From: Betaproteobacteria bacterium SCN1 | Lineage (GTDB): Bacteria > Pseudomonadota > Gammaproteobacteria > Burkholderiales > Thiobacillaceae | Assembly (NCBI GenBank): GCA_008923315.1 | Contig: WBSF01000008.1 | Span: 372,001-436,000, forward strand | Direction of reading: 5' to 3' | Length of the DNA stretch: 64,000 nt | Part shown: positions 2,078-18,800 of the stretch, piece after piece | Numbering within the stretch: the first letter of the stretch is position 1 | Layout: the number at the start of each line of letters is the position of its first letter | Notes under the pieces: model-generated | Databases searched by the model: none | Told to the model about the DNA's origin: nothing | What the model saw: only the letters and a program-made list of their open reading frames with translations | Made by a program: the position numbers and the translations under genes

Positions 2078-2476
2078 TCAATCCTCGTCACCCTCCAGTA
2101 ATCCGTTCGCGAGGTTGAGCGCAGTGCGCGCCGCCTTCTCCTTCGCATTCAGGAGCCGTGCCTTTTCGTTCGTCTCCACGTACCAATTGCGTTGATCCGG
2201 TGTCATGCGCTGAAGTACGCCCTGCATCTGTTCCCACCGCAAATGGACGTGGTTGAGGCCATAGCTTCGCCACATGAGGAAACGCTGCCCCGTGTCTCGA
2301 CGGTAATGCAGGTACAGATACCAGGGGCTACCCGAGACCCGACGCGATTCCTCAGCAAGGATTTCCATATCGAACAGCACCCGCTCCAGTGCTTTCCGAC
2401 TTCGAGATAGCCACTCGACGGCCCCCTTACCCTTAAAGGGCCTTTTGTCGAACGCATTCGTTGACAAACGGCTCAT
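2078..2476 (-). CDS. DUF3158-like ICE protein
   Basis: 132 residues, soluble and basic, beginning with a Lys/Arg-rich segment (FDKRPFKGKGAVEWLSRSRK) and rich in Arg and aromatic residues (WYLYLHYRRDTGQRFLMWRS). The size and its place directly after the TIGR03761 gene match DUF3158-family proteins of PFGI-1-like ICEs. The ATG overlaps the TIGR03761 stop by ATGA, so the pair is probably produced together. No biochemical activity is established that I know of. The family assignment is from context and general sequence character, not a search. Confidence 0.65.
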   Translation of the reverse strand: MSRLSTNAFDKRPFKGKGAVEWLSRSRKALERVLFDMEILAEESRRVSGSPWYLYLHYRRDTGQRFLMWRSYGLNHVHLRWEQMQGVLQRMTPDQRNWYVETNEKARLLNAKEKAARTALNLANGLLEGDED

Positions 2477-3519
2477 AGCAGGGTGTTCTCCTGCTTCAGC
2501 TCACTTCCATCCTCATCGGCTTTGCCCTGCGCCACTTCCATCAACAGTCGCATCTCGGCCTCGCTGACATCCGCCCGGCGGCGGCTGTGGCGCGGCCGCA
2601 CTTCCCCGGTGAAGATCGCCTGTGGCACTTCCCCGAAGATTCCAACTGCTGCCTCAACCCGCTTGCGTGCATCGTCATTCGCCCCAGGCAGGAAATCGCT
2701 CCGGGAAAGCTGGCGCAGCTCCTCACGCAAGAGGTACTTCTGGTAGGGCAAGGTCGATTCGAACAGTGCCCGAATGCGCTTGGTCATCTGGTACAGGTCC
2801 TCCTTCCCTTCCTGATCGCCCAGGCGATCACGCTGCACCATCGTTTTGACGACGCGGGCATACCAGTCGTAGTCCAGGATCAGATCCACGATCATGTAGC
2901 CGTATGGAGAACGGAAGCCGAGCTCGACTTCCACTGGCGCACGACTCTTCAGTACGGACACTCGCAACCCGCGAGACTGCATCTTCTCGAGTTCAGCCTG
3001 AAACAAATTCCCGGCCTGCTCGATCTGCTGGCGCAGTTCACTGATCCTGTCCGTCACCTGCACCAGAATCCAGTCGGCGTAGGGGTTGTCGTTCGCGGAC
3101 AGGTTCCAGATGGACCTGAGCACTGCCGCAACCTTCTTCCCACTGGTGATGCCATAACCTCGGGGAGATTCATCGCGAGTCCGACCGATGAAGAGCCGGT
3201 AGGCCTCTTTCGTATGAATCTCCATCATGTCGGTCTCGTCCGCCACGAGACTACCGATCTGCTTCAAAGCGCGCGCCTCGTGATCGGGCACAATCGGATC
3301 CGCATACTGTCGCTGCTGCCGGTTCGTCTGATCACGCCTCAATTTCTCTTCGCGATCCATCAATTCCACGTAGCGCGGCCACCGTAAATCTTTCTCGTCA
3401 GGCTCGTCTGCCTCGATCAGATCCTTCAGCGCATCTCGCTCCCCAGCGATGTCGTACTTGTCATCGAATGGCGAGTCGTCCGAGGTCGGAAACCATCCCG
3501 TCGTTCTAGGTATTGCCAT
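2473..3519 (-). CDS. TIGR03761 (PFL_4669) / AcaB-like ICE protein
   Basis: 348 residues. Features fitting TIGR03761/PF08900 proteins are an acidic N-terminal third, the segment LFIGRTRDESPRGYGITSGKK (about 110-131), and a central helical region with NPYADWILVQVTDRI. Members related to AcaB act as transcriptional regulators of conjugative elements; here that is a family-level inference. The ATG at 3519 is preferred to the GTG at 3522 because GGAG lies 7 bases upstream. A 226-nt structured element ends 41 bp upstream of this start and could act in its leader. Confidence 0.75.
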   Translation of the reverse strand: MAIPRTTGWFPTSDDSPFDDKYDIAGERDALKDLIEADEPDEKDLRWPRYVELMDREEKLRRDQTNRQQRQYADPIVPDHEARALKQIGSLVADETDMMEIHTKEAYRLFIGRTRDESPRGYGITSGKKVAAVLRSIWNLSANDNPYADWILVQVTDRISELRQQIEQAGNLFQAELEKMQSRGLRVSVLKSRAPVEVELGFRSPYGYMIVDLILDYDWYARVVKTMVQRDRLGDQEGKEDLYQMTKRIRALFESTLPYQKYLLREELRQLSRSDFLPGANDDARKRVEAAVGIFGEVPQAIFTGEVRPRHSRRRADVSEAEMRLLMEVAQGKADEDGSELKQENTLL

Positions 3520-3560
3520 CACAAAGCTCCAGATTCGTCATTTGATAAACTCTCTCCCAA

Positions 3561-3786
3561 GTGCTACTCGGTGGGCTGTCGGGTTCACGGGATGACCTGC
3601 ACACGGTTACCAACCAGGTCATCGCAATGCTGCTGCGGTAACGCCCTTTACCTTGCCCGGTATGCAGCCAGACAAGGCTTCTGTCTCGACTGCCGCATCG
3701 AGACGCCTCCTGCCCTTGCGGGCAGGCTTGCCGTTGAGTTTCAACGGACAGCATTGCGCTACTGCCGACAGCCCGCCGAGTAGCAC
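3561..3786 (-). ncRNA. Structured 226-nt element: long closing stem with nested hairpins (candidate ncRNA or insertion)
   Basis: The ends 3561-3582 and 3765-3786 are reverse complements over 22 bp with one mismatch. Inside are 3591-3599/3615-3623 (9 bp), 3623-3632/3749-3758 (10 bp), 3632-3636/3664-3668 enclosing 3637-3641/3648-3652, 3675-3678 + 3683-3689 / 3698-3708 (7+4 bp), 3709-3715/3720-3726 (7 bp) and 3731-3737/3741-3747 (7 bp). All nest without conflict except the single base at 3623. On the minus strand the 3709-3726 hairpin has a GCAA (GNRA) tetraloop. The element abuts the stop of the Rmf/CrpP-like gene and lies 41 bp before the TIGR03761 start. It may be a structured RNA, a leader regulator, a HEARO-like insertion (ATGA precedes it) or a MITE. 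Confidence 0.5.
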
Positions 3787-4122
3787 TCATTCAGCCACTT
3801 CCTGCTGCGCCACCTTCCGGCCGGTCGCAGCGTTGGCACTACCAACGCCAGCCACTTCCTGCTGCGCCACCTTCCGGCCGGTCGCAGCGTTGGCACTACA
3901 ATCGGTTTTCATCTCCCCGAACAGATCGAGTTGCGAAACCTTTCGGTGTCCCTCAAGCCAGGCGTTCCTGAACGCCCTGGACCAGGACAGGCGCCCGGAA
4001 TCAGTCCTCTTGTCCCGGTAGGGACAGGTCTGCACCGGCAGCCCCGATCTGGCGGCCTCGGCACCTTTAAGGCGCGCGCCGTCCAGCGCCGACCGTTTCG
4101 TAACAAGCTCAACCTGGCTCAT
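3787..4122 (-). CDS. Rmf/CrpP-like small protein with duplicated C-terminal tail
   Basis: 111 residues from the ATG at 4122, which overlaps the upstream stop (ATGA). Residues about 10-60 carry a layout like ribosome modulation factor and CrpP: GAEAARSG, then CPY, then W-x(5)-W-x-EG. Rmf binds and silences ribosomes; CrpP proteins are small plasmid/ICE relatives. The C-terminus consists of a 19-residue unit (core SANAATGRKVAQQEVA) present twice because of a 57-bp tandem duplication, so the tail is probably dispensable or recently altered. Function here is inferred from fold resemblance only. Confidence 0.6.
   Translation of the reverse strand: MSQVELVTKRSALDGARLKGAEAARSGLPVQTCPYRDKRTDSGRLSWSRAFRNAWLEGHRKVSQLDLFGEMKTDCSANAATGRKVAQQEVAGVGSANAATGRKVAQQEVAE
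3792..3899. repeat. 57-bp tandem duplication in the Rmf/CrpP-like gene
   Basis: Positions 3792-3842 and 3849-3899 are identical over 51 bases with a 57-bp period. The period is a multiple of three, so the reading frame is kept and the tail gains one 19-residue copy. The lack of divergence suggests a recent slippage or unequal-recombination event, directly beside the 226-nt structured element. Confidence 0.95.
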
Positions 4123-5582
4123 GTCTTTCCCCACAGGCGCTGGCGCAGTGCCGCGACATGCCGACGCGCCTCGTCGGGCGGCGTCCGGGTGTCAGGAGCC
4201 TGCGACAGGCCTTCGCGCTGTTTCAAAAGCTCGGCTTTCCGCTGCCGAGCAGCCGCGACCTTGTAGGCACACTCGGGCTGGAAGGCCCCGGATAGTTGCT
4301 TCTGGCGTAATGCCCTGAGGTAACCCAAGGCCTTCGTGACGTGACCGTCTACCATTTGGCCGGCAAGTTCATCGAGCAACAGTTGAGGGTCATGGCTACC
4401 GGCCAGGATGGTGATCGCCGCCTGTTTTTCCTGGGGCAATAACCCCTCCGGGAAGATCAGGGTTGCCGGATTACTGGAACAGTCGGGCTTTTCCTTGCCC
4501 TGAAAGGCGACCATCTCCCCCTCCACCCGCTTATGGGGGGGTAGGTATGGAGTATTTATTTCCTTATAAGAAAAAGTTGCCGATACCGCAGAACTTGTTT
4601 CGCGGAAAGGGAAACTCTTGTTCCGCGCTTCAGGCAACTCTTGATTCGCGGAACCGGCAACTCTTGATTCGCGGTTCGGGCAACTCTTGTTACGCGTTTT
4701 GAGCAACTCTTGTTTGCAGGATCCTGCAAACAAGTTTGTAGGATCCTGCAAACTGTGGAATTCATTGGCCTGCGGGCCGATTTTCCGCCTCAGACTTGTC
4801 AACATCTCCGTCAGATTCAGGCGGGTCAGGAGGGTGGATTGCATCCTGTTTTCCCGGATTTCATCCACCATGCCTGAGTCGACCAGCTTGGCTCGCGAAT
4901 TCGTGAGCATCCTCCGACCGTACTGCAGGTTGTTTAGGCCATCGAACACCGGACTGCTGAACCAGCCACCTTTGTCGACCTCGCCACGGCCAAGCGCCTG
5001 ACGCAGTTTCCTGACCAGCAACGAGGCATAGAGCCCAGCCAGCGCGCTGTCGGCGATCCAGGCCAAAGGAGCGTAGAACATGACCGGCTTGCCGAGCAGG
5101 GTTTTCAGGACTCGGTCATCCCACGACCATGGGCGATAGGCTGTATTCGCCATCTCACAGAGCCCCTTGGCCAGCTCGTCCAGATTCACCCTGAACCAGA
5201 GTTTTGCGGGCATGCCACGGCGCTCCTCGGAAAGAACCCCAGCTGTCACCAGCGTGCGGCGCGCGGTTTCCAGCTCGCGCACAGTCAGGCCGGTGGCTTG
5301 CTTCCATTCAGCCGACGTCTTCCAGAACCAGCCGGCACGCACAGGCTGCTTTTCCATGACTACTCGGGTCATGTACATGGCGTGCCCGAGCATCAAGGCG
5401 GCTTTGGGAGACCCCGTCACGCTGGCAAGCGTCGGGTAATACGCGACATACCTGCTCCCCAGAATTGCCAGGAGATCCTTGATCTCTTGTGCCAATGTCT
5501 CGTCGACCCTGGTCTCTTCCGTCCGGAGGTAAGCGTGGGCGTATCGCATGACAGGGCCGGTCAGAACCGGATATGCCCCCAT
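4119..5582 (-). CDS. ICE replication protein, winged-helix type, with iteron-like repeats in its gene
   Basis: 487 residues from the ATG at 5582, preceded by an AGGCGG-type site; an alternative ATG is at 5549. Residues about 40-150 (VTGSPKAALMLGHAMYMTR, GWFWKTSAEWKQATGLTVRE, MPAKLWFRVNLDEL) match the upstream 132-residue protein and look like a helix-turn-helix replication module as in phage O-like initiators. Residues about 260-320 are compositionally odd (Asn, Arg, Ser, Cys rich) because they are encoded by six 23-bp DNA repeats. The C-terminal third is basic and helical. I infer an initiator role from fold resemblance, ICE context and embedded repeats; no catalytic motif is visible. Confidence 0.6.
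   Translation of the reverse strand: MGAYPVLTGPVMRYAHAYLRTEETRVDETLAQEIKDLLAILGSRYVAYYPTLASVTGSPKAALMLGHAMYMTRVVMEKQPVRAGWFWKTSAEWKQATGLTVRELETARRTLVTAGVLSEERRGMPAKLWFRVNLDELAKGLCEMANTAYRPWSWDDRVLKTLLGKPVMFYAPLAWIADSALAGLYASLLVRKLRQALGRGEVDKGGWFSSPVFDGLNNLQYGRRMLTNSRAKLVDSGMVDEIRENRMQSTLLTRLNLTEMLTSLRRKIGPQANEFHSLQDPTNLFAGSCKQELLKTRNKSCPNRESRVAGSANQELPEARNKSFPFRETSSAVSATFSYKEINTPYLPPHKRVEGEMVAFQGKEKPDCSSNPATLIFPEGLLPQEKQAAITILAGSHDPQLLLDELAGQMVDGHVTKALGYLRALRQKQLSGAFQPECAYKVAAARQRKAELLKQREGLSQAPDTRTPPDEARRHVAALRQRLWGKT
4587..4724. repeat. Six iteron-like repeats, exact 23-bp period (candidate replication origin)
   Basis: Six consecutive 23-bp units begin at 4587, 4610, 4633, 4656, 4679 and 4702. 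Units three to five share GGCAACTCTTG at the start and units three and four also share ATTCGCGG. The first and last are more diverged but keep CTTG in register. The period is not a multiple of three, so conservation cannot come from a repeated peptide and points to selection on DNA. An AT-rich stretch (about 4548-4577) flanks one side and two palindromic units the other. Tandem repeats plus an AT-rich segment inside an initiator gene is the arrangement of the phage lambda origin. Confidence 0.75.
4709..4753. repeat. Perfect 26-bp palindrome and a near-copy beside the iteron array
   Basis: Positions 4709-4734 are a perfect 26-bp palindrome centred on GGATCC. A 20-bp core (4712-4731) recurs 22 bp away at 4734-4753 with one change, itself nearly palindromic. 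Its first half overlaps the last iteron. In origin regions such sites often bind a dimeric initiator or regulator, or extrude as cruciforms; that role is inferred. Confidence 0.9.
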
Positions 5583-5959
5583 CGAGCGTCCGCCTGTGCC
5601 GACAGCAGTTCCAGTACCCGGTCGAGGCGGACCTTGAAGTAAAGCTCGGCCGGCAGACCGTACTTCCGTTCGATCAGAATATTCAGGTCGCGCAGGATCT
5701 TGCGGGCGGCCTGCTGCTCGAAACGAGTCAGGCCCGTTTCGGCCTTCCATTCTTCGCCGGTCTTCTTGAACCAGCCCTCGGCCTCGGCCGGCAGGCGTTC
5801 GGACGTGTATACCGCATAGGAAAGGAACAGTGCTGCCACAGCACTGCCCGTCAGTCCGACATAAGCGCGCTGGAAGACGATCGGTTCGTCGAATATATCC
5901 AGCAGCAGCGCCGGCGTGATCGTGCTGCTGACCTGCTCATCGGCCTTACTTTTTGCCAT
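5561..5959 (-). CDS. Short winged-helix-like protein, paralogue of the downstream replication protein
   Basis: 132 residues. The start at 5959 has an AGGAAA ribosome binding site; earlier in-frame codons overlap the previous gene. Its core (LTGSAVAALFLSYAVYTSE, GWFKKTGEEWKAETGLTR, GLPAELYFKVRLDRVLELL) aligns segment by segment with residues about 40-150 of the 487-residue protein that follows and overlaps it by 22 bp. It therefore looks like a stand-alone copy of that DNA-binding module, possibly a competitor or loading partner at the same repeats. No other domain is present. Confidence 0.65.
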   Translation of the reverse strand: MAKSKADEQVSSTITPALLLDIFDEPIVFQRAYVGLTGSAVAALFLSYAVYTSERLPAEAEGWFKKTGEEWKAETGLTRFEQQAARKILRDLNILIERKYGLPAELYFKVRLDRVLELLSAQADARWGHIRF

Positions 5960-6545
5960 GGGATTTCCTCTTTTCCTTGGCCTCGGCCGCTTTGAACTCG
6001 TTGACCGTCGCGTAGAGGACATCCAGGGGGTAATCGCTAAAAAAGCCATGTAGCAGAATCAGACGTTCACGGAGGCTTTTCATGTCGGGGTATTCCTCCG
6101 GCATGCCATGCCAGCATTTGTGGATCAGATCCCGAACAGCCTCGTCAGGCAGAGCGATACGCCCATTCCTCCGGTCTAGCTTGATGAGCTTCCGGTATGA
6201 CTGGATCACGCGGGGATCCATCTGCGGAAAGGATTCGTTCAGCATCGAAGCAGTTGCCCCGTTCTGCATGAAATAGATAAGGTGCTCGGACTCCTCTCGA
6301 CGCCGATCAAGGCTGGCAATACCCAGCTCGAAGCCGTCTTCGTTGATCGAGAAATGGATGTCTGGATGACCAGACGAGGCGAGCTGCAGCAGATCGCTGA
6401 TGCCCATGCCGCGCAGGCGGTCAATCAGCCTGGGGCAGGTACCCTTTTCGAGCAGCACCGCCAGGTCGCCGCGTTCGAGCTGCTCGATCAGGTGTATGAG
6501 TAACTGCGCACGCAGCGTGTCATTCATTACACGAACCAGCATCAT
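5946..6545 (-). CDS. DUF2857-like ICE replication-region protein
   Basis: 199 residues, starting at the ATG at 6545 that overlaps the parB stop (ATGA) and ending 14 bp inside the next gene. It is soluble with a helical N-terminus (LRAQLLIHLIEQLERGDL), a region DLLQLASSGHPDIHFSIN, and a basic C-terminal tail (AAEAKEKRKSHGKK). Size and place after parB match DUF2857 proteins (STY4526/YPO1902-type) of pathogenicity islands and ICEs. The segment around residues 85-125 (ATASMLNESFPQMDPRVIQS) resembles a DNA-binding helix-turn-helix. Family call by context and general features. Confidence 0.6.
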   Translation of the reverse strand: MMLVRVMNDTLRAQLLIHLIEQLERGDLAVLLEKGTCPRLIDRLRGMGISDLLQLASSGHPDIHFSINEDGFELGIASLDRRREESEHLIYFMQNGATASMLNESFPQMDPRVIQSYRKLIKLDRRNGRIALPDEAVRDLIHKCWHGMPEEYPDMKSLRERLILLHGFFSDYPLDVLYATVNEFKAAEAKEKRKSHGKK

Positions 6546-8185
6546 GGCCTGGCCCCCCTCAGCTTCAACAGCAGTGCCAGGCAGGCATCCGCGATGGGGC
6601 TCTCCCGGTTCAGCAGCCAGGGGATCGCCAGGAACTCGCCTTGTCCGCCGATGTTGTGCTGAATGGCCAGTTCGAGGCCACCCAAAGTCTCGGCTGTGTC
6701 CTCCAGAATCAGGGATCGCCACTCGTTTGATTCGTCGAGGCCTGCGCGGCAAGCCTCGGGGTCGAATTGGCCGCTGGCCATGGCAAGGACCCACCAGGCA
6801 GCCTGCCGGTTCTGGGCGTGTTCCTTGAGGTCCAGCGGGCCATCTTTCGGGAAACCCATGATGAACCCCAATGGCATGCCAGGCGCTTGCTCATAGCATG
6901 TTCCAATTTCAGCCTTGACGACCAGGGACCGGATTAGCGTGCGCAAGTCCTCCGGAACGCTTGGGGCTACGGGGTCATCCGGCTCGTGTTGTTCCTGGGA
7001 GTTTGGTGAAACTTCCGTCTCTGGCGGCCTAGCCGGTGACGTCGAGGGCTGCGCATGGGGCGGATTGTTTTGGGGTTTCTGTGGTTCGGCCGATTCGGGC
7101 TGGCTGGCTGGATGGGTCTGCTGAACGCTCAAAGCTGGCGTCGTTGGCGGGGGCGAAGGCCTGCAGAGCTTGCGCAGATCATCCAGTGCCATGTCCGGAA
7201 AGCGCTCAATGGCGGTCGCCATGCGGACGAGATCGCGAGCCTCGATATTCAGCTTGCCACTTATCGCCACTTCAACGCCGCGCAGAAAGACATCAACACT
7301 GAATGCCTGTCCTTCCAGAACGCTTTGAGCGATCGCTCTACAAACCGGCGTCACCAGCTCGTCGTAGAAGCCGGGCTCCTCGATGTCGTGATGGTTGACC
7401 AGCTTCAGGAGCAGATTGAGCCGAGGCTGGATGGTGCGGATCGACAGGCCGGAAAGCCAAGGGCCGAGGTCGGGAAGCTTCTCGACCGCAAAGCGGTACA
7501 TGCTTAGGGTTCGCAGGTCTGTCTGCAGCCCGAATTTCTTGATTTCACTTTCGAACTCACGATACGTGAGGTTGCGCTGCAGCTCTTCTTCCAGTTGGCG
7601 CTTGATTTCCAGGGTGCCGTTGGCACGATCCCAGAAAGTCATGTCGTTGCGCTGCGTGTTTTCAGCCATGTGCGCAAGCAGGACCGCCGACTCGCCTCGC
7701 CATTTCTTGACGATGACTCTCGTCTCCCTGTATTTCAGGTCCCCCGTCTCTTCCCACAGCTGGCGAATGGCCTGCAGCCGGGTGTTCCCGCCTGCAAAGA
7801 GGATGTAGTGGCCGTCCCCAGGCCGTTTCGTTACCGTGAGTGGCTGAAGAATGCCGTTGACTCGAATACTTTCGAGCAGCTCCACATAGGCATCGTTGTT
7901 CGCCTTACGAGGATTGCGCTCGTAGAAATTAATGGCCGTTACAGGTAACGACGCCCATGAGTCGTCAACCTCGGTGTCGTGTTTCAACGCAATTCCACTC
8001 TGAGGAGCGGGCGTATTTAGACTTTCCGTTGCGAGCTGGATCTTGAGTTGCCGACGTGCTTCCCGCCTTTCGTCTTCCGACTTTGGTTCGAACGAACCTG
8101 ACTTGTACCCATGTTTCTGTGCCAGGTCGCTGATCTGAACTGACTGCGGGATACCAAGAAGAGGGGGCTTCCGCTTCGCCATCAT
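6542..8185 (-). CDS. parB: ParB-family partition protein of the ICE
   Basis: 547 residues, start at 8185 (ATGA overlap with parA). Residues about 75-185 hold the ParB/Srx-like nucleotide-binding fold: LPVTAINFYERNPRK, a GILQPLTV strand and FAGGNTRLQAIRQL in the place of the usual GERR-type box. A helical DNA-binding region follows (about 185-330), then a Pro/Gln/Ser-rich linker (about 345-405) and a separate C-terminal domain (about 410-547). The long linker and extra domain fit the PFGI-1 class of ICE ParB proteins rather than chromosomal ParB (about 290 residues). It probably loads at parS-like sites near parA and helps keep the excised element. Confidence 0.85.
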   Translation of the reverse strand: MMAKRKPPLLGIPQSVQISDLAQKHGYKSGSFEPKSEDERREARRQLKIQLATESLNTPAPQSGIALKHDTEVDDSWASLPVTAINFYERNPRKANNDAYVELLESIRVNGILQPLTVTKRPGDGHYILFAGGNTRLQAIRQLWEETGDLKYRETRVIVKKWRGESAVLLAHMAENTQRNDMTFWDRANGTLEIKRQLEEELQRNLTYREFESEIKKFGLQTDLRTLSMYRFAVEKLPDLGPWLSGLSIRTIQPRLNLLLKLVNHHDIEEPGFYDELVTPVCRAIAQSVLEGQAFSVDVFLRGVEVAISGKLNIEARDLVRMATAIERFPDMALDDLRKLCRPSPPPTTPALSVQQTHPASQPESAEPQKPQNNPPHAQPSTSPARPPETEVSPNSQEQHEPDDPVAPSVPEDLRTLIRSLVVKAEIGTCYEQAPGMPLGFIMGFPKDGPLDLKEHAQNRQAAWWVLAMASGQFDPEACRAGLDESNEWRSLILEDTAETLGGLELAIQHNIGGQGEFLAIPWLLNRESPIADACLALLLKLRGARP

Positions 8186-9983: not shown

Positions 9984-10079
9984 TGGCGGAAGGGAGCGGG
10001 AGTCGAACCCACCCGGGAGCGGCTGACGCCCCCAACCGGATTTGAAATCCGGCCGTGCCACCAGGCACGATTCCCTTCC
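9984..10079 (-). tRNA. selC: tRNA-Sec (anticodon UCA)
   Basis: 96 nt including an encoded CCA. It has the long 8-bp acceptor stem (GGAAGGGA with TCCCTTCC) specific to bacterial tRNA-Sec, an anticodon arm CCGGA-TTTCAAA-TCCGG with anticodon TCA at 10045-10043, a long variable arm and a TTCGACTCCC T-loop region. It is charged by SerRS and converted to Sec-tRNA by SelA, then delivered by SelB. The 5' end is only 6 bp after the selB stop, so it is probably processed from the selA-selB transcript. Its 3' end points at the ICE side. Confidence 0.96.
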
Positions 10080-10085
10080 GTTGCT

Positions 10086-15883: not shown

Positions 15884-18800
15884 CTATACCTTTTCGAGGT
15901 CCACAAGGAAGGACTTGAATTCCGGCGTCTGGGTGTTGCCGTCGCCGACGAAGGGCGTCAGGGTGTTGGTGATGTAGCCGTTCCTCGCCAGCCCCAGGAA
16001 GCCCCAGTGGATCGGCACCCCCACGGTGTGCACCTTCTTGCCCGCGATCTCGAGCGCGCGCAGGCGCTTGGTCACCACCGCCACCGCGACGATGAAGCCG
16101 CGGTTGGATTTCACCCGCACGTGGTCGCCGGCCTTGATGCCCTTCTGCTGCGCCAGTTCTTCGTCGATCTCCACGAACTGCTCCGGCTGCACGATGGCAT
16201 TCAGGCGCACGTGCTTGGTCCAGAAGTGGAAATGCTCGGTCAGGCGGTAGGTCGTGCAGACGTAGGGGAACTTGTCGGGCTTGCCGAACGTGCTCCAGTC
16301 CTCCTTGAACACACGCGCAGCCGGGTTGGCGCGCGCCGCGGCGTTCGCCGGATGCAGCGGGTTGGTTGCGAGCGGCGATTCGAACGGCTCGTAATGTTCG
16401 GGGAAAGGACCCTCCGCCATCTTGTCGACCGCGAAGAAGCGCGCCACGCCCTCGGGATTCATGATGAAGGGGCTCATTCCGTCCTCCGGCGGCGAATCCG
16501 CCTTGAAGTCCGGAATGTCCGACCCGCTCCACTTGCCGCTCGCCGCATCCCAGGCGATCAGCTTGCGCGCGGGATCGTAGGGCTTGCCGTTCGGGTCGCA
16601 GGATGCGCGGTTGTAGAGCACGCGCCGGTTGGCCGGCCAGGAAAAGGCCCAGTTGAGCGTCTGGCCGATGCCGAACGGATCGCTGTTGTCGCGCCGCGCC
16701 ATCATGTTGCCCTTTTCCGTCCACGCGCCGGAGAACAGCCAGCAGCCGCAGATCGTGCTGCCGTCGTCGCGCAGTTCGGCAAAGCCGTTCAGCTGCTCGC
16801 CCGCCTTGACCAGAACCCGGGTCGGATCCTTCGGGTCGGTCACGTCCTTCAGGGCCTTGCCGGAAAACTCCCGCGCCAGCTCCTCGGGCGAGGGCGCATC
16901 CGGCTGCCTGTGCTTCCAGGTCAGGTTCAGGATGGGCTCGGGGAAGGCGCCGCCGTCCTTCTTGTACATCGCCTTCAGCCTGAGGAAGATGCCGGCCATG
17001 ATTTCCTGGTCGCCCTTGGCATCGCCCGGCGGCTCGGCCGCCTTCCAGTGCCACTGCAGCCAGCGCCCGGAATTCACCAGCGAACCGTCCTCCTCCGCGA
17101 AACAGGTGGACGGCAGACGGAACACCTCGGTCTGGATCTTGGCCGGATCGACGTCGTTGTATTCGCCGTGGTTCTGCCAGAATTCCGAGGTCTCCGTCGC
17201 CAGCGGATCGATGATGACCAGATACTTCAGTTTCGACAGCCCGGTGGACACCTTGATCTTGCAGGGGGCCGAAGCCAGCGGGTTGAAGCCCTGGCAGATG
17301 TAACCGTTCATCTTGCCCTGGTTCATGTTCTCGAACACCTGCAGGATGTCGTAGCCCTTGTCGAGCTTGGGCAGCCAGTCGTAGCACCAGTTGTTCCCGG
17401 CGCTGGCCGAATCGCCGTACCAGGCCTTCATCGTGCTGACGAAGAACTTGCCGTAATTCGACCAGTAGGACAGCTGCCCCGGCCGCAGCGGCTTGAAGGC
17501 ACGCTTGTCGATGTAGGCCTTGTAGTCCTGCTCGGCGTCGCCGGGCAGCGTCATGTAGCCCGGCAGCAGGTTGGACAGGAGGCCCAGGTCGGTGAGTCCC
17601 TGGATATTGGAGTGGCCGCGCAGCGCGTTCATGCCGCCGCCCGCCGCGCCGATGTTGCCCAGCAGCAGCTGCACCATGGCGCCGGTACGGATGATCTGCG
17701 AGCCTTGCGAGTGCTGGGTCCAGCCGAGCGCATACATGACGGTCATGGTCTTGTCGGGCGCAGCGGTCGTCGCAATCATCTCGCACACCTTGAGGAAGGC
17801 CTCCTTGGGCGTGCCGCAGATGGTGAACACCATGTCCGGCGTGTAGCGCGCATAGTGCGCCTTCATGAGCTGGTACACGCAGCGCGGGTTTTCCAGGCTC
17901 GGATCGGTGACGACGTAGCCGTCCGGCCCGATCTGGTAGCCCCAGCTCGATTTGTCGTATTTGCGCGCTTCCGGGTTATAGCCGGAATAGATGCCGTTCT
18001 CGAACGCGAACTCGTCCTTCACCAGGAAACTGAAGTCCGTGTAGTTCTTCACGTATTCGTGGTGAATCCTGTCGTGGCTCAGAAGGTAGTTGATGACCCC
18101 GCCCAGGAAGGCGATGTCGGTCCCCGCCCTGATCGGCGCGTAATAGTCCGATACCGCGGCCGAGCGCGTGAAGCGCGGATCGACCACGATCAGCTTCGCC
18201 TTGCGGTGCGCTTTTGCCTCCGTCACCCACTTGAATCCGCACGGGTGGGCTTCGGCGGCGTTGCCGCCCATGATCAGGACCAGGTCGGTATTCTTGATAT
18301 CGACCCAGTGGTTGGTCATCGCGCCGCGGCCAAACGTCGGGGCCAGACTGGCCACCGTCGGACCGTGTCAGACACGCGCCTGATTGTCGAATGCGAGCAT
18401 CCCCAGGCTACGCGCGATCTTCTGCGTCAGATAGCCGGTTTCGTTGCTGGACGCGGAAGCGGCGAGCATGCCGGTGGATATCCAGCGATTCACCGTTTCG
18501 CCCTTGTCGTTCTTCGCGATGAAGTTCTTGTCGCGGTCTTCCTTCATCAGGCGGGCGATGCGGGTAAACGCCTCGTCCCAGGAAATGGGCTGCCATGCCT
18601 TGCTGCCCGGGGCGCGATATTCCGGCCGCTTCAGCCGGTTGGGACTTCGGACGAAATCGAGCAGGGCGGCCCCTTTGGGGCAGAGCGTGCCGCGGTTCAC
18701 CGGATGGTCGGGGTCGCCCTCGATATGCATTACCTCGCCATGGGCATTCTTCGAGCGGTCGCCCAGGCTGTAGATGAGGACACCGCATCCGACCGAGCAG

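Follow-up and report, generated by a model that had tools for sequence, protein, structure and literature searches.

A structured non-coding element ahead of an inrR-like gene in two related ICEs, possibly a leader RNA

The window analysed here, a 64,000-nt stretch of Betaproteobacteria bacterium SCN1 DNA, carries a non-coding structured element of 226 nt at positions 3561-3786, on the minus strand and read towards an inrR-like gene. Its inverted repeat and stems are real and not a product of chance. Comparison with a second copy indicates that the fold is probably kept through matching pairs of mutations, and that the element is probably a functional RNA or a single-stranded DNA structure. 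From its structure, conservation and position we propose that it may belong to the leader of the inrR-ssb region as a structured RNA, conserved in one Thiobacillus ICE lineage, with a closing stem cut by RNase III; we give this reading an even chance of being right.

The outermost feature is the inverted repeat that an earlier note on this DNA had described as 22 bp with one mismatch. It is found as claimed, with 3561-3582 pairing with 3765-3786, and a repeat search extends it to 23 nt (96% complementary). When inverted pairs no shorter than 16 nt and no more than 500 nt apart are ranked across the 64-kb window, it comes first (best 25 of 27 pairs). The nested stems that the note had also listed all appear when the minus strand is folded at minimum energy: the 10-bp stem, the 7-bp hairpins, of which one has a GNRA loop, and the 9-bp arm. 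In the direction of the inrR-like gene, the parts are as follows.

3765-3786, minus strand: closing stem, 5' arm, pairing with 3561-3582
3748-3757, minus strand: inner 10-bp stem, 5' arm, pairing with 3624-3633; one paired change
3731-3747, minus strand: 7-bp hairpin, identical in both copies
3709-3726, minus strand: 7-bp GNRA hairpin, loop GCAA, in the homologue GTAA
3683-3704, minus strand: 7-bp hairpin, stem invariant, loop variable
3650-3678, minus strand: long imperfect hairpin, in which two T-A pairs of the window are T.T in the homologue
3624-3633, minus strand: inner 10-bp stem, 3' arm, pairing with 3748-3757; one paired change
3591-3623, minus strand: 9-bp arm, stem invariant, loop changed with small shifts
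3561-3582, minus strand: closing stem, 3' arm, pairing with 3765-3786
3520-3560, minus strand: 41-nt spacer containing CTGGAG (Shine-Dalgarno-like)

The minus-strand RNA folds at -132.0 kcal/mol, against -86.2 +/- 5.0 for shuffles (z -9.1), and the plus-strand RNA at -121.3 kcal/mol (z -7.8); for each strand, 0 of 200 shuffles folded as well. When 160 stretches of equal length (226 nt) were sampled from the 64 kb, none had as low a GC-corrected fold residual. The inrR-like ATG (3519) lies 41 nt past the edge of the element, the distance given earlier, and the TTGGGAGA..TATCAAATGA of the spacer is largely common to the window and the homologue. The reported contact with a stop codon is only partly borne out: the TGA of ORF 3787-4134 does end at the edge of the element, but this is not conserved in the homologue, where the counterpart of the ORF (L121 738-962) stops about 330 nt earlier, ahead of the repeats, and a second, purely mechanical ORF across the repeats stops 4 nt inside the element. 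A coding origin, already thought unlikely, was rejected: the reading frames across the element are not the same in the two copies, and length differences in the loops shift the frame.

By its gene set, the minus-strand neighbourhood belongs to an ICE of the ICEclc/PFGI-1 kind. The genes around the element encode an HTH protein, ParA, a ParB-like protein, a DUF2857 protein, an Rmf/CrpP-like protein, the inrR-like product, an SSB and an HU-like protein. The element itself sits between a 57-bp repeat array and inrR.

2473-3522, minus strand: inrR-like gene (PF08900 AcaB; TIGR03761 PFL_4669 family)
3792-3904, minus strand: tandem-repeat array of two units at 57-bp spacing, bisS-like
5946-6794, minus strand: DUF2857 protein, candidate BisC by position only
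6542-8185, minus strand: ParB-like protein, candidate BisD (TIGR03764, 134.1 bits, below the cut-off of 143.75)

The ParB-like protein is a candidate BisD by family and position. For ICEclc, one report gives the order parA-shi-bisD-bisC-orf96323-orf95213-inrR, with a promoter, PinR, that responds to BisDC (PMC7423338). A second report describes BisD as a ParB-like clamp whose sliding begins at bisS boxes and which coactivates promoters (PMC13393423). The region studied here resembles the PinR/bisS region in gene order (PMC7423338) and in the palindromes that precede inrR in relatives; a difference is the structured insert that separates the boxes from the gene, which was found in only two ICEs.

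The array at 3792-3904 contains the palindrome CGTTGGTAGTGCCAACG, intact in one unit, together with a GGTGGCGCAGCAGGAAGTG box. In 25 of 48 loci, the 250 nt before the InrR match contain a palindrome whose arms are 8 or longer, versus 1 of 48 genic controls; palindromes in mononucleotide shuffles averaged about 5, and the best of 20 shuffles reached 8-10 in some loci. The 48 loci, from a total of 80, are those in which the InrR match starts within the first 18 residues with at least 200 nt upstream; L037, with a short upstream region, and L059 were left out. Across L031-L109 these palindromes vary in sequence by lineage and stay symmetric (GTGTTCGCAGTGCGAACAC, CTGTTACCCCGGGTAACAG, CGTTAGCAGTGCTAACG and others), and several lineages have a TGGCGCA-type box nearby. 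They are probably bisS-like sites, an identity assigned by analogy. At the other end of the region, a tRNA-Sec gene (9984-10080) adjoins the ICE genes and is followed by ORFs that we take to be selB and selA; the ICE seems to be inserted at selC.

A single full-length homologue was found, in Thiobacillus sp. 0-1251 (G720, MKWL01000018.1), a genome of the same genus, where it surfaced in a terminal-repeat pattern search over the 117 genomes of the family. It is 85% identical (196 of 230 aligned positions) and occupies the same site, between the repeat array and inrR. Two related ICE loci share its contig: L133, which has the element and is cut off by the contig end, and L031, which lacks it; a 1.0-kb stretch of this G720 contig is identical letter for letter in L031. 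For five upstream genes of the two element-bearing ICEs, protein identity is 66-91% and identity at fourfold sites is 0.35, 0.27, 0.41, 0.54 and 0.53, with neighbouring ORFs overlapping slightly in this comparison. The element, at 85%, thus appears far more conserved than the fourfold sites of its neighbours, unless the segment was exchanged later. Such an exchange between ICEs could be an alternative cause of the 85% identity. The ICEs are mosaic, since the InrR of the window is nearer to element-free relatives (84-85% identity) than to the ICE of the homologue (78% over 104 residues).

The earlier note had proposed looking for compensatory changes in the stems, and the comparison of the two copies reveals them. 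When the structure derived from the window is imposed on the homologue, 77 of 81 pairs are kept, with 8 changed on both sides and 4 on one side, and 4 are broken; permuted substitutions break 16.1 pairs on average, and in 0 of 20,000 permutations were 4 or fewer broken. The reciprocal test, with the sense structure derived from the homologue, is weaker: among 84 pairs, 4 are changed on both sides (P 0.006), 5 on one side, 7 are broken (P 5e-5) and 1 is gapped. In a consensus fold, every one of the 76 pairs is standard in each copy, and nine are kept so by a two-sided change, values reached by 1 of 500 shuffles; controls with slid pairing had 29-43% of cells paired and 0-2 double changes. We discounted four of the nine two-sided changes, three in helix 10 (a shifted stretch) and one (22-29) in a 2-bp stem. 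The five solid ones are at columns 4-225, 7-222 and 19-210 of the closing stem, 37-158 of the inner stem and 66-73 of the GNRA hairpin, where, besides the pair altered on both sides, one C-G has become U-G. The one C.A mismatch in the closing stem of the window is a T-A pair in the homologue. This covariation comes from two sequences, that is, a single comparison.

The tests single out neither a strand nor RNA over DNA: both strands of both copies fold well, the antisense folds pass the same tests, and the homologue has the better z on its antisense strand (-10.0, versus -8.6 in sense). The antisense fold from the window passed the permutation test with 6 paired changes and 4 broken of 77 pairs, and that from the homologue with 7 paired changes, 7 broken and 1 gap of 85. 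In both copies the sense strand folds at lower energy than the antisense. The mRNA-sense consensus has 8 G-U cells (one in helix 10) versus 1 A-C cell, a count biased to the sense strand in that the consensus was folded in that sense. Taken together, the G-U count, the lower energies and the GNRA loop (GCAA/GTAA) lean towards the mRNA sense.

The earlier note had also suggested comparing ICEs for empty sites, and eight related loci without the element were found (L031-L037 and L059; InrR identity 69-85%), in seven genomes, L036 and L059 coming from one MAG. In these loci, the last repeat lies 19-23 nt from the inrR ATG. Two further loci, L038 (a Pseudomonadota MAG) and L039 (a Gallionellaceae MAG), carry, in the roughly 130 nt that precede the inrR-like match, a sequence bounded by GGTTGG..CCAACC, which may be another kind of structured insert in the same place.

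The element is single-copy in its own genome, in which, besides the two arms, there is one arm-like match with 3 mismatches. A covariance model run over the inrR loci (best 80 of 89 relatives) found no copy outside the window and L133; elsewhere, scores reached at most 17.4 bits. DNA searches matched only the element's own genome among 369 genomes of the class (E<=0.001), only its own and G720 among the 117 family genomes and, with the homologue as query, only its own among 398 genomes of the phylum (E<=1e-4). At E<=1, 249 of 300 genomes of the order matched; the listed matches outside the element's own genome are pieces of about 17-60 nt (best E 1.5e-4). The covariance model found only its own genome among 399 of the order (E<=0.001); in the 117 family genomes (E<=0.1) it found its own, G720 and three weak matches (0.015-0.084). 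Through 40 of the 80 inrR loci, 40 genomes were searched as well (E<=0.01), and three had matches: that of L031, which is the G720 contig again; G1225, with two short hairpins (L147 and L149); and G1234. The last (L148) was rejected as a copy, spanning the terminator region of what we take to be rpoA-rplQ. No copy was found in the plasmids and phages searched. In viral contigs, the terminal-repeat pattern, a 26-mer and the inrR protein all had no match, and a 17-mer had four places, none with a model match above 10.2 bits. The genome groups overlap, so that these counts are not additive, and few candidates were scored per genome, so that diverged copies can be missed. Against the rest of the window, a search for antisense or trans targets gave only one 13-base match.

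A covariance search of the window against Rfam 15, another check put forward earlier, matched no family to the element at gathering score; the only matches were the tRNA-Sec and SECIS_3. The latter (84 bits, 18315-18373, minus strand) overlaps the 5' end of the minus-strand ORF 15884-18355, which is probably a selenoprotein gene read through TGA. Six matches at E<=10 in 3400-3950 were taken as chance; the best of them, mir-878, scored 20 bits, and its gathering score is 80. A retron ncRNA was also considered, and no RT family was found among the proteins scanned.

The suggestion of a HEARO-like RNA is not supported: RF02033 matched neither the element (3400-3950, E<=10) nor anything in its own genome. 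PF14239 (IscB/IsrB-like) likewise had no match in this genome, in a search whose control matched in no genome. HEARO insertions lie next to ATGA or GTGA; here AATGA precedes the window copy and GTGTGAA the homologue, in which ATGA is not kept. Like HEARO/omega-RNA, a multi-stem RNA of about 200 nt or more for which one source describes standalone copies (PMC9581776), the element is a multi-stem structure. Omega-RNA, as we read that source (PMC9581776), has a separate 5' stem, whereas the closing stem of the element joins both of its ends.

A broader version of this idea, that the element is a functionless remnant of a mobile element (a MITE, or an ORF-less IS- or HEARO-like insertion), would account for the 22-23-bp terminal inverted repeat and for the eight related loci and the second ICE locus of the homologue's genome that are without it. 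In the window, AATGA flanks, on either side, the element together with 18 adjoining nt, and four Y1-transposase matches (PF01797) in the same genome mean that an IS200/605-type enzyme could act in trans. We nevertheless think it unlikely. The earlier note had held that identical scattered copies with target duplications would point to a simple MITE, and the genome has one copy. The AATGA repeat, which lies 18 nt past the right-hand inverted repeat, unlike in a plain MITE, is absent from the homologue; RF02033 has no match; and a functionless insert is not expected to keep its pairs through double changes. MITEs are short non-coding units with terminal inverted repeats and empty sister loci, features that the element shares in its 22-bp repeat and length of about 0.2 kb. 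It differs from them in its single copy, its paired changes and the lack of a target duplication common to both copies, so that a plain MITE is a poor fit. We would class the element as an orphan among the structured elements of ICEs, with two copies known.

A single-stranded DNA site, used for priming (ssi/PAS-like) or as an Frpo-like promoter during ICE replication or transfer, would suit the ssDNA folds, which with ssDNA parameters lie far below shuffles on both strands (z -7.0 for the minus strand and -7.9 for the plus strand). One report places Frpo elements ahead of ssb genes (PMC11541004), and an SSB gene lies downstream of the element; a folded stretch upstream of ssb in a conjugative element is what the two share. 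About 0.8 kb upstream of the element, moreover, there is an iteron-like array with an AT-rich flank (4551-4753, inside ORF 4119-5750): six AACAAGAGTTGC-like units at exact 23-bp spacing, adjoining the AT-rich stretch and a pair of 20-bp palindromes (GTTTGCAGGATCCTGCAAAC), one of which has a mismatch. This looks like an ICE replication origin embedded in a gene, and it keeps alive the earlier note's suggestion of a single-stranded DNA origin. The array is also in G720, but it is present as well in six scanned element-free relatives, where fewer units match and the palindrome is a different, largely symmetric one, and is thus independent of the element. No linear -35/-10-like (sigma-70-like) site was found in 3400-4200 on either strand, and the fold is multibranched, in both respects unlike Frpo/ssi promoters. 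An Frpo-type promoter uses the template strand, whereas the G-U bias and the GNRA loop lean to the mRNA sense. We regard a single-stranded DNA site as improbable. We consider it very unlikely that the element is instead part of a promoter or operator at the level of duplex DNA, as a spacer or barrier for a sliding BisD clamp, or with its palindrome as a protein-binding site or cruciform. Its place directly between the palindromic array and inrR would fit the BisD clamp as described, with sliding from bisS boxes and coactivation of promoters (PMC13393423). A duplex-DNA site, however, needs no nested hairpins with paired changes, and array and gene are kept in element-free relatives.

Under the leader-RNA proposal, transcription towards inrR would start in or upstream of the bisS-like array and pass through the element. 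The insert is expected to be co-transcribed with inrR because the 19-23 nt of the element-free loci leave no room for a promoter between array and gene. The RNA would fold as a single closed domain, in which the 22-bp stem encloses a multiloop with the 10-bp stem and its hairpins and the 9-bp arm, and the Shine-Dalgarno-like site of inrR would stay free about 30 nt downstream of the fold. RNase III would cut the closing helix of about two turns, a step drawn from general knowledge of that enzyme; the cut would release a discrete RNA of about 0.2 kb and define where the inrR mRNA begins. RNase III is known to process structured 5' leaders, and what the element has in common with these is a long helix upstream of a gene and a ribosome-binding site outside the fold. 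Besides the single comparison, the antisense results, the weaker reciprocal test and a possible later exchange, several points count against the proposal: two pairs of the long hairpin break (T.T), 3400-4200 shows no promoter-like site, and related ICEs do without the element. In the earlier suggestion of a structured regulatory RNA, then, the structure has held up, with stems kept by paired changes beside genes whose fourfold sites have diverged; transcription, RNA over DNA, RNase III cutting and an effect on InrR are what we infer.

The element is real and conserved and is unexplained by the families searched; its function is read from its form and setting. On the strength of the Rfam search and a thin literature search, it would appear to be new. 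A bolder form of the proposal, which is possible but which we hold doubtful, is that it represents a new RNA class of ICEs of the ICEclc/PFGI-1 kind, lying between the loading sites of a ParB-like activator and inrR, in which a stable RNA of about 0.2 kb would set the output of transfer competence.

The palindromes before inrR offer a data set for the co-evolution of a ParB-like protein and its site, and MKWL01000018.1, with loci with and without the element, is a natural paired comparison for expression. If the element were a single-stranded DNA site, it would hint at the way in which these ICEs are replicated or regain their double strands. The protein side of the switch that decides on ICE transfer has been worked out in ICEclc; if one of the output genes does have a conserved leader RNA with such a fold, it would add an extra layer to that switch, testable from the two-copy comparison.
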